Positions 30,002 to 59,505 of a DNA stretch of 64,000 nucleotides are shown here, one piece after another; within the stretch, counting starts at the first letter, position 1; each line of letters starts with the position of its first letter. The notes under the pieces are model-generated. The model worked only from the letters and a program-made list of their open reading frames with translations. It searched no databases and was not told where the DNA came from. Source of the stretch: Paenibacillus sp. FSL H7-0737 (GTDB taxonomy: Bacteria > Bacillota > Bacilli > Paenibacillales > Paenibacillaceae); NCBI RefSeq assembly GCF_000758545.1, contig NZ_CP009279.1, positions 2,790,001 to 2,854,000 on the forward strand, in the 5' to 3' direction. A program made the position numbers and the translations under genes.

Positions 30002-30054
30002 AAAAAGTTCATTCAGCATAGGAACACTAAAAATGCATGGGATGAAAATTCTGC

Positions 30055-30141
30055 TCCACTTCCCTCCGCTGGTATGATCCAGATCAGGTTCCAAGGGTCC
30101 GGAGCTTGAAGCTCCGTCTCAGTCGGCCGACTCCCCTAGTG
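30055..30141 (-). promoter_or_regulatory. TPP riboswitch (THI element)
   Basis: The minus strand reads ACTAGGGGAGTC ... CTGAGA ... GACCCTTGGAACCTGATC ... ATACCAGCGGAGGGAAG, the conserved THI box in the right order, including the CUGAGA pyrimidine-sensing motif and the GGAACCUGAU helix. It controls the thiZXY-thiMDE operon. Confidence 0.97.
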
Positions 30142-30172
30142 AAATAACAGGTCCATATTTAATTTGTTTATA

Positions 30173-57496: not shown

Positions 57497-58492
57497 TTAT
57501 TTTGAAAAATAATTAAGGCCAATAGCCTCGCGTACTTCGGACATCGTTTCTTGAGCAATATCGCGGGCACGCTTAGTTCCGGATAATAAGATATCCTCAA
57601 CAACCTTGGGTCTGGCAGCATAATAGGAGCGACGCTCACGCATTGGTTCAATTAGCTGGTCTAGAGCTGTCGTGATAAGCTGCTTACAGGCAGAACAGCT
57701 TATACTGCCACTTTCGCAGCTATCGTGAATTTCTGAGGCGCCATGCGAACGAACAGCACGATGATAAGCATAAATGGGACAAATATCTGGATGCCCAGGA
57801 TCATTTTTATGAACACGGGCTGGATCGGTTGTGGCTTTACGGATCTTGAAGGTGATCTCTTCTTTCGTAGAGTCCAGCTCGATAGCATTGCCGAGGCTTT
57901 TACTCATTTTAGCATTGCCGTCTGTTCCTACTAGTCTTGGCGTCTCGCTGATGAGCGCTCTGGGCTCCACAAGGATGGGGCTGTACAGTTCGTTGAATCT
58001 ACGTACGATTTTGCGGGTCAACTCCAGATGGGGAAGCTGGTCTTCTCCTACAGGAATAATCGTCGCTTTACAAAAGGTTATATCCGCAGCCTGGCTAACT
58101 GGATAACCTAGAAAACCATAATACAATTCATCTAAGCTGGAATTTTTCGATTCGGCTTTAATCGTGGGATTATGCCGTAAAGAATTCACAGTAACAAACA
58201 TGGAGAATAGGACGGTCAGCTCAGCGATCTCAGGAACCATAGATTGAATAAATAGGGTGGCTTTATCTGGATTTATACCCGCCGATAAATAGTCCAGTGT
58301 GATTTCATTCAAGTTTTGACCAAGGTATTGAGGCCGATCAAAGTGAGTCGTTAGGGCTTGAATATCTGCTAGAAACACAAAAGTATCATATTGCTCCTGT
58401 AGAGTCACTCGGTTCTGTAAACTGCCCACGTAATGGCCAAGGTGCAGCTTTCCGGTCACTCGATCTCCAGTTAATACACGTTCTTTTATCAT
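57497..58492 (-). CDS. trpS: Tryptophanyl-tRNA synthetase
   Basis: 331 residues from ATG 58492, right after AGGAGGAATTCAA. Class I motifs are GKLHLGHYVGS (HIGH-like) and AKMSKSLGN (KMSKS). It charges tRNA-Trp. A Trp T-box and a Trp-rich leader ORF precede it. The frame is also open in phase upstream to 58552, but that extension is leader sequence and is not annotated as coding. Confidence 0.95.
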   Translation of the reverse strand: MIKERVLTGDRVTGKLHLGHYVGSLQNRVTLQEQYDTFVFLADIQALTTHFDRPQYLGQNLNEITLDYLSAGINPDKATLFIQSMVPEIAELTVLFSMFVTVNSLRHNPTIKAESKNSSLDELYYGFLGYPVSQAADITFCKATIIPVGEDQLPHLELTRKIVRRFNELYSPILVEPRALISETPRLVGTDGNAKMSKSLGNAIELDSTKEEITFKIRKATTDPARVHKNDPGHPDICPIYAYHRAVRSHGASEIHDSCESGSISCSACKQLITTALDQLIEPMRERRSYYAARPKVVEDILLSGTKRARDIAQETMSEVREAIGLNYFSK

Positions 58493-58556
58493 TTGAATTC
58501 CTCCTGTTTTGTCGCTTCTGATTAATATTGAGTCGCCACCACCAGCCATCATCCAT
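58386..58556 (-). CDS. Putative Trp-rich leader peptide overlapping the trpS start
   Basis: ATG 58556 follows AAAGGAGGTGAT (58572-58561), a 12-base match to the anti-Shine-Dalgarno, with ideal spacing. The peptide begins MDDGWWWRLNINQKRQNRRN. Codons 5-7 (58544-58536) are TGG TGG TGG. The ORF runs through the trpS ribosome site (AGGAGG at 58506-58501) and on in a different frame to TGA at 58386. It sits directly after the T-box terminator, so it is transcribed only with trpS. Confidence 0.6.
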   Translation of the reverse strand: MDDGWWWRLNINQKRQNRRNSNDKRTCINWRSSDRKAAPWPLRGQFTEPSDSTGAI

Positions 58557-58577
58557 GGCCATCACCTCCTTTAAATG

Positions 58578-58885
58578 ACAAAAAAACCTCATCCAATAAG
58601 GACGAAGTTGTCGTGGTACCACCTTAAATGATCGCGCAACCAGGTTTCGTTAGTATTACGATCTTCTCTTACCGGTACGGAGAAGGTCTGAGACAATCTC
58701 GATACAGGTCCCTTGATAACGGCGGGAAACCCGGCTTTCCCTACAACATCAGCTAAGATGGTTCGGAAGAGCAACTCTAAAGGCCATTCGATCAAGCGCT
58801 GGACACCGGTTCGCAGCAGCCACCGGCTCTCTGAAGTCCATGTTCGATTGTCTACTTACCCTTTGTCTGCGTTGTTCATGATATT
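58578..58885 (-). promoter_or_regulatory. Tryptophan T-box leader of trpS
   Basis: The minus strand carries the T-box AAGGTGGTACCACG (58625-58612) and a specifier triplet TGG (58786-58784) in the 3' part of Stem I (TCGAATGGCC). A terminator stem ACTTCGTCC/GGATGAGGT with T run lies at 58608-58580. Uncharged tRNA-Trp should favour read-through. Confidence 0.93.
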
Positions 58886-58891
58886 TTGGTA

Positions 58892-58920
58892 ATTGTAATT
58901 CTGATAAGTGAGTTTGTCAA
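58892..58920 (-). promoter_or_regulatory. trpS promoter
   Basis: TTGACA (58920-58915) and TACAAT (58897-58892) on the minus strand are exactly 17 bases apart. Confidence 0.8.
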
Positions 58921-59044
58921 TGGTTGGAAATTAGATGATGATACAGAGCATCTAGGTTTATATGATCTAGCAAAGTATCACTTAAATGTATATTATCATC
59001 AGCAATTAAGTCCAATCTATCATTGTTGATTCACAATATAATAA

Positions 59045-59056
59045 TGTATAACCTTG
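59045..59056 (+). promoter_or_regulatory. Shared upstream motif TGTATAACCTTG, copy 2
   Basis: Identical to the 12-mer at 51263-51274 upstream of the paralogous gene. A CATA/ATATAA-like box just upstream might be a sporulation-sigma -10; weak. Confidence 0.5.
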
Positions 59057-59079
59057 TAATTGGAATGGAGTGATGATAA

Positions 59080-59505
59080 ATGGCGACAAATATAAGTTAT
59101 GGTTCACAGGCAAAAATCCCTTTAGACCCGTTTAATGCTGTTACAACGGTTGCAGGGATTCCTGGAGCTGGAGTGGGTCTTGCCACAGCGCAAGTAAATA
59201 TTAGCCCAGCTAACCCAGCTTCTTTCTCTAGTAGAGTCGAGTTAAATGGTAGTTTTAGTCTTACTGCACTTGCTGATAGTCAATTTCTTGTTTTAATCCG
59301 ACGTGCAGGAGTCGATATTTATAGCTCCTTTTTTCGTTTTACTACAATTACTGATATTCAATTAAATGTTCAGTGGGTTGATGGTCCTTATATTGGAGTC
59401 CACAATTATGAATTGGTAATTCAAAATGATAGCAACTTACCTATAAATCTATTTGGCCCCATATCATTCACAGCAACTGCTATTGGAGGAGACGGAGTAA
59501 TTTAA
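59080..59505 (+). CDS. Orphan beta-rich protein, paralogue of the 51.3-kb gene
   Basis: 141 residues, GGAGTG before ATG 59080. Shares NPASFSSRVELNGSF, the IRRAGVDIYSS pattern and the C-terminus NLFGPISFTATAIGG with the 51.3-kb product (NPATFRSRVELKASF, IKGPITFTATAIG). No signal peptide; small, mainly beta-strand. Function unknown; a surface or spore-associated role is a guess. Strong terminator follows. Confidence 0.7.
   Translation: MATNISYGSQAKIPLDPFNAVTTVAGIPGAGVGLATAQVNISPANPASFSSRVELNGSFSLTALADSQFLVLIRRAGVDIYSSFFRFTTITDIQLNVQWVDGPYIGVHNYELVIQNDSNLPINLFGPISFTATAIGGDGVI

Follow-up and report, generated by a model that had tools for sequence, protein, structure and literature searches.

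Read-through of a terminator in response to uncharged tRNA is an established property of T-boxes, and leader peptides elsewhere act classically by opening RNA structures or by attenuating transcription. In the rtpLP-rtpA system, the rtpLP stop lies just 5' of the Shine-Dalgarno (SD) sequence of rtpA. The combination of a T-box and a leader peptide at this locus was reportedly described by Chen and Yanofsky in 2003 and 2004. A leader-peptide attenuator of a Streptomyces trpS gene is likewise said to have been described by Vecchione and Sello in 2010, as cited in PMC4787780. PMC11255114 presents the rtpLP-rtpA operon of B. subtilis (yczA, anti-TRAP) as a T-box combined with a Trp leader peptide. 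PMC1262725, from 2005, predicts a Trp leader peptide acting as a transcription attenuator for Streptomyces trpS, finds no classical T-boxes in Actinobacteria and states that T-boxes control most synthetase genes of Firmicutes, with classical attenuation acting on none of them.

The locus analysed here lies on the minus strand of a 64 kb stretch (the window, i.e., the whole DNA analysed) of Paenibacillus sp. FSL H7-0737. As in rtpLP-rtpA, a Trp T-box is followed by a leader ORF that has its own SD and several Trp codons in a row and, as its layout suggests, would act on the translation of the next gene, so that tRNA-Trp would be sensed in tandem at the transcriptional and the translational level. 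Unlike there, the gene under control encodes a tRNA synthetase instead of anti-TRAP, and the leader stop is found beyond the ATG of the regulated gene in 131/131 loci instead of upstream of its SD. The parallel drawn in the initial annotation, with a synthetase gene and an overlapping peptide as the distinguishing features, agrees with the layout. As in Streptomyces, an auxiliary tryptophanyl-tRNA synthetase gene stands behind a Trp leader peptide, but the leader controls a terminator there, whereas the transcriptional step here would be the T-box: regarding attenuation of the trpL or Streptomyces type, no terminator-like site was found 3' of the leader in the window, and only one of 131 spacers (L069) holds a hairpin followed by a T run. 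No description of this leader was recognised among the open-licence papers searched, which is weak evidence of absence; although the tandem logic is known from rtpLP-rtpA, a T-box joined to an out-of-frame, overlapping leader on a synthetase gene is a new combination. The elements of the locus are the following.

58892..58920, minus strand: promoter-like site, TTGACA-17-TACAAT, 11 of 12 consensus bases, just 5' of the T-box; not evidence of function.
58595..58878, minus strand: T-box leader (RF00230; cmscan, 96 bits, gathering score 93).
58789-58784, minus strand: GAATGG with a Trp-type specifier codon, inside the T-box, from the sequence.
58580..58609, minus strand: intrinsic terminator of the T-box including its T run (hairpin 58609-58585; terminator scan; fold z -2.25 for 58575-58650).
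58561..58572, minus strand: leader SD, AAAGGAGGTGAT, a 12-nt match to the anti-SD complement.
58386..58556, minus strand: leader ORF of 56 codons, MDDGWWWRLNINQKRQ... (MDDGWWWRLN...), with its ATG from 58556, crossing the trpS start out of frame.
58536..58544, minus strand: TGG TGG TGG (TGGTGGTGG), leader codons 5-7, from the sequence.
58500..58505, minus strand: trpS SD, AGGAGG, read AGG AGG in the leader frame.
57497..58492, minus strand: trpS2, auxiliary tryptophanyl-tRNA synthetase of 331 aa (ATG at 58492; TIGR00233, 278.3 bits; nearest solved chain, TrpRS II 2a4m).

The initial annotation had described a strong SD and an ORF with three consecutive TGG codons at 58544-58536 behind the T-box terminator, running in another frame over the SD and start of trpS, with the Trp codons about 30 bases 5' of AGGAGG. 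Every one of these features is present: the leader extends from 58556, across the trpS ATG at 58492, to a stop at 58386 that lies 107 nt inside trpS, and the gap between the last TGG and AGGAGG measures 30 nt. The hairpin at 58609-58585 is the one terminator-like hairpin within 58380-59080 (shuffle mean 0.6), promoter-like sites in the region number four against a shuffle mean of 2.0, and GAATGG is taken to be the specifier site from the usual position of T-box specifiers. Given that TGGTGGTGG occurs twice in the 64 kb, both strands counted, the run alone means little, and the evidence beyond chance is comparative.

The identity of the regulated gene as trpS stands, with the amendment that it is an auxiliary second copy. 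It matches TIGR00233 well above the cut-off (278.3 vs 176.75 bits), and its best solved chain, 2a4m (315.5 bits), agrees with a TrpRS II-type assignment. The other trpS of the genome, at 5686642-5687613, is 34% identical to trpS2 and has its own T-box. Both genes thus resemble the T-box-controlled synthetase genes of Firmicutes in having a T-box and terminator upstream, but they differ in the Trp leader ORF placed between T-box and trpS2, since no Trp-rich ORF was found between the T-box and the other trpS. Among 27 T-box matches in the genome, only that of trpS2 is followed by such a leader (by eye, with up to five SD-led ORFs inspected for each). The genome also encodes TRAP (PF02081, 139.2 bits; L261, G000:C1:4689398-4689598), so Trp-TRAP control may coexist with the trpS2 leader. 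Elsewhere in the window, a TPP riboswitch (84.2 bits) is found at 30044-30147 on the minus strand.

The comparison with relatives drew on four overlapping samples, in which trpS2-like genes were present in 45/100 genus genomes (at least 61% identity), 100/394 family genomes (E 1e-90), 100/392 genomes drawn from the order (E 1e-70, including two partial or broken genes) and 46/299 genomes drawn from the class (E 1e-70, many remote). Without four matches of the order set (G483, G502, G507 and G142) and 16 weaker ones of the class set, these samples gave 152 loci, of which 144 are distinct and were scored; named among them are those of Paenibacillus jilunlii, P. taichungensis, P. allorhizosphaerae and Cohnella sp. 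REN36. A leader was scored when an SD match of at least 5 nt and a start codon were followed by at least two TGG within the first 14 codons and, if several in-frame starts qualified, the one placing the first TGG at codon 5 was chosen. In a control scan of named genomes, 9/80 loci were positive: six (L180-L185) are Paenibacillaceae trpS2 loci identical to already counted ones and add no new evidence, and the remaining three (L204, L211 and L218), representing a background of 3/74 other trpS loci, are chance ORFs ending 5' of the gene.

By this criterion, the leader is present in 131/144 distinct loci, which span eight families (f1, f6, f8, f16, f21, f32, f54 and f58). Twelve of the 13 misses are remote homologues with 41-46% identity (L168-L179), some of which, by eye, seem to have a T-box without the leader (L174 and L175). 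The 13th, L142, reads MDDGWWRFSS by eye behind a G-run SD that went unscored, and is excluded from the counts. As the criterion itself demands two TGG, the Trp conservation is partly built in, and the fair form of the result is that the leader is found in 132/132 loci with at least 60% identity (131 by criterion and L142 by eye). With three mismatches at most allowed, a leader pattern of 28 bases was found once each in 45/100 genus genomes, the reversed control giving none; 44 of these 45 carry trpS2, and the only trpS2-bearing genus genome lacking a match, G017, has the divergent leader MVDDWRWRP. The 45th, the 71% complete G089, holds a fragmented trpS2 with internal loss behind a stop-interrupted leader (L260, G089:C44:6700-8700), with no match to a T-box; leader and trpS2 seem to be decaying together in it. 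Overall, the comparison confirms the leader as a real and deeply conserved element of the sequence.

Since the sequences are related, the tips are not 131 independent cases and their counts overstate the evidence; fairer are parsimony counts, which were obtained on one midpoint-rooted FastTree tree of trpS2. By these counts the leader behaves as a genuine coding sequence would, codons 2-4 changing mainly at third positions: positions 1, 2 and 3 took 1, 2 and 30 changes in codon 2, 0, 4 and 22 in codon 3, and 1, 1 and 16 in codon 4, and the tail varies freely from codon 9 (about 33 to 50 changes per position in codons 9-12). The common peptide is (M/V/L)(E/D)DGWW(W/R), with D at position 3 in 119/131 and G at position 4 in 129/131. 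TGG stands at codon 5 in 131/131 (by placement, the numbering being conventional, since the start was chosen accordingly and another in-frame ATG is often present two codons earlier), at codon 6 in 122/131 and at codon 7 in 68/131. Conservation therefore concerns Trp codons that keep a constant spacing to the leader SD, and not the triple run: among the features whose conservation the initial annotation had proposed to check, the leader, its SD, its Trp codons and its frame held, and the uninterrupted TGG triplet did not. A GGCC just 5' of the leader start (window 58540-58560) is also conserved, for which the model set out below gives no account. It can pair with a downstream AUGGCU to form a small stem that would hide the leader start and is possible in most loci; the informative pair is matched in 101/131 (shuffle mean 89.5, maximum 98), so that the stem is weakly supported by a covariation indistinguishable from peptide conservation.

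The relative frame of leader and trpS is locked. The offset between the two starts is in phase 1 (mod 3) in 130/131 loci over distances from 58 to 238 nt, and on the tree this distance underwent about 58 changes of length against one change of phase; this count rests on the chosen trpS start, a choice avoided when measuring from the leader start to the trpS SD, which gives 59 changes with four of phase. The largest distances, 238 and 205 nt, belong to L153 and L135, in which repeated segments stretch the interval, frame and openness being kept. Upstream of the trpS ATG, the leader frame has no stop in any of the 131 loci, whereas stops within the interval from leader start to trpS ATG interrupt the trpS frame in 115/130 and the third frame in 96/130. 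Shifted to phase 2 (the third frame), 109/131 leaders would terminate at the trpS ATGA, an arrangement typical of positive coupling and the opposite of what an occlusion model needs. The single leader in frame with trpS2 (L008, from G039) would give a leader-TrpS fusion; owing to a T run near its trpS2 start, a sequencing error (a miscounted base) is possible, as is a real change. The trpS SD falls in the leader register in 124/130 loci, read as AGG AGG in 78 and as AGG AGA in 32. In the other 6/130 the register differs and phase 1 is kept, and the corresponding residue class of SD spacing is seen in 12/28 genes of the window. The possibility that the AGG AGG register is selected for its own sake was considered and set aside: this register is probably a by-product of the frame lock, as altering the SD-to-ATG interval by one base would put the leader into another frame.

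The overlap itself also seems to be under selection. Within the first 60 nt of trpS, phase 1 is stop-free in 131/131 loci, against 53% expected from synonymous codon resampling (L008 is included in this count in spite of its own leader being in another phase). For intervals measured from the trpS start, 0 phase-1 stops were observed vs 47.2 expected at +2..+32, 0 vs 23.6 at +32..+62, 15 vs 36.7 at +62..+92 and 85 vs 82.9 at +92..+122, in the 131 loci. Openness beyond +60 is found in 2/12 leaderless homologues, and in the third frame in 11/131. All 130 out-of-frame leaders terminate over 60 nt inside trpS, and the stop of the L008 leader coincides with that of trpS. With no stops up to +62 and the expected number from +92, selection seems to exclude the leader stop from roughly the first 60-90 nt and to relax further on. 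The overlapping leader was already part of the initial annotation; the exclusion of its stop from the initial 60 nt of trpS is an addition to it.

Upstream, the covariance model recognised a T-box in 34/35 scanned loci (19/20 and 15/15, at E 0.01 or better), several of them below the gathering score (33 bits in L147), and the one miss, L134, has only about 200 nt present upstream of trpS. A core motif was found in 127/131 loci, three of the other four (L021, L022 and L136) being positive by the model and the fourth being the short L134. The motif alone gives false positives, as it also occurs in 6/74 other loci (L188, L219, L225, L244, L248 and L254). A GAA(A)TGG specifier pattern was found in 114/131 relatives and none in the other 17. 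In one locus, a c-di-GMP-I riboswitch (64.3 bits; L016:3033-3123) lies on the other strand, upstream of the trpS2 region.

Taken together, the conserved leader, its SD, its Trp codons, its frame and the overlap held open support the dual T-box and Trp-leader reading of the initial annotation, and we consider it likely that trpS2 stands under two tRNA-Trp sensors in series, a T-box and then occlusion by the leader. In a first step, abundant uncharged tRNA-Trp would make the T-box, whose action here is deduced from the RNA family match, let the RNA polymerase past the terminator, yielding the full mRNA. In a second, ribosomes would enter that full-length mRNA at the leader SD, a very strong one. 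With ample Trp-tRNA they would pass the Trp codons, cross the trpS SD and ATG out of frame and block initiation there, so that the leader probably prevents trpS2 translation when Trp-loaded tRNA is plentiful. These ribosomes would terminate well past the trpS start and could not readily re-initiate at it; the position of the stop fits such an avoidance of re-initiation. With scarce Trp-tRNA, they would stall at the Trp run from codon 5, at least 40 nt 5' of the trpS ATG, leaving the initiation site free. A distance of at least 40 nt between the last TGG of the codon-5 run and the trpS ATG is indeed found in the leader loci and, from known 30S footprint sizes, should clear the initiation complex; some leaders have a further TGG nearer to trpS, as in L073, where 18 nt separate it from the SD. 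It also counts against the model that the trpS SD is predicted to be of intermediate accessibility, with no advantage over shuffled upstream sequence (0.58 and 0.56). AGG AGG or AGG AGA at the trpS SD may slow leader ribosomes there or be a by-product. As T-box and leader point the same way, trpS2 would be kept very tightly off. The coding signature, Trp codons, frame and open overlap are thus legible in the sequences, and stalling and occlusion would be their mechanistic counterpart.

Are there other ways to account for this arrangement? The nearest one, which we regard as unlikely, would have the nascent M-D/E-D-G-W-W chain arrest the ribosome or sense free tryptophan, with the overlap still acting as the switch. 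It would give a meaning to the nearly invariant D/E-D-G, whose mostly synonymous changes go beyond what a codon-only sensor needs, and codon-specific stalling alone leaves this conservation unaccounted for. Nonetheless, known arrest peptides require contacts of a longer chain with the exit tunnel, for which four residues before the first Trp are too few, and T-box and leader would no longer respond to the same signal. The role of the overlap could be questioned instead, with the leader stabilising the read-through mRNA (ribosomes stalled near a 5' end can do so in Bacillus) or serving some other purpose; this is less probable still, as it predicts neither the locked frame nor the 60 nt of trpS kept clear of stops. 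About equally improbable is that the stalled ribosome opens an RNA structure hiding the SD, as in ermC, or governs a second transcription attenuator, in favour of which there is the single spacer of L069. CCTCC or CTCCT was found in none of the 131 leaders, and the fold of the window leader is no better than its shuffles (z +1.03). Masking the region of the stalled ribosome raises accessibility by more than 0.2 in only 2/64 tests (every second of the 131 loci, two long ones dropped). The accessibility, terminator and fold tests thus do not support SD sequestration or a second terminator, which would also leave frame lock and stop-free overlap unexplained.

The remaining alternatives concern the protein product. 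A programmed +1 frameshift, e.g., at AGG AGG, would fuse leader and trpS, and the relative frame is precisely the one that such a shift would join, the trpS SD lying mostly in the leader register; in 38 long ORFs of the window, AGG accounts for 6.3% of the Arg codons. But the nearest trpS-frame stop falls between SD and ATG in 42/130 loci and further upstream in 73 more, so the product would be cut in many of them, and the SD and start of trpS are retained, which leaves a frameshift fusion unsupported and its probability slighter still. Least credible of all is an N-terminally extended TrpS from 58552, in which the TGG run would be read GGT GGT GGC (Gly): the trpS frame of the window is open up to 58552 (MMAGGGDSILIRSDKTGGIQM...), as it is in 15/130 leaders, but the stops of that frame in the other 115/130 contradict the extension, and the coding signature sits in the leader frame.

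Returning to the series of T-box and occluding leader, a more far-reaching form of it can be put forward tentatively, with somewhat less than even confidence: a structure-free switch in which ribosome traffic alone would silence the overlapped gene, the leader stop would be selected to lie past the range of re-initiation (about 60-90 nt), the SD would double as slow tandem AGG codons, and the whole, together with the T-box, would put an auxiliary synthetase behind two locks in eight or more families of the class. If the two-sensor reading is true, tandem transcriptional and translational sensing of one tRNA, as known from the anti-TRAP operon of B. subtilis, would be widespread and would control an enzyme of translation itself. 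It would also offer a naturally replicated system in which to measure the blocking of an internal start by elongating ribosomes and the distance between leader stop and gene start that is needed against re-initiation. Finally, it would bear on the question of why a spare synthetase must stay so tightly off.
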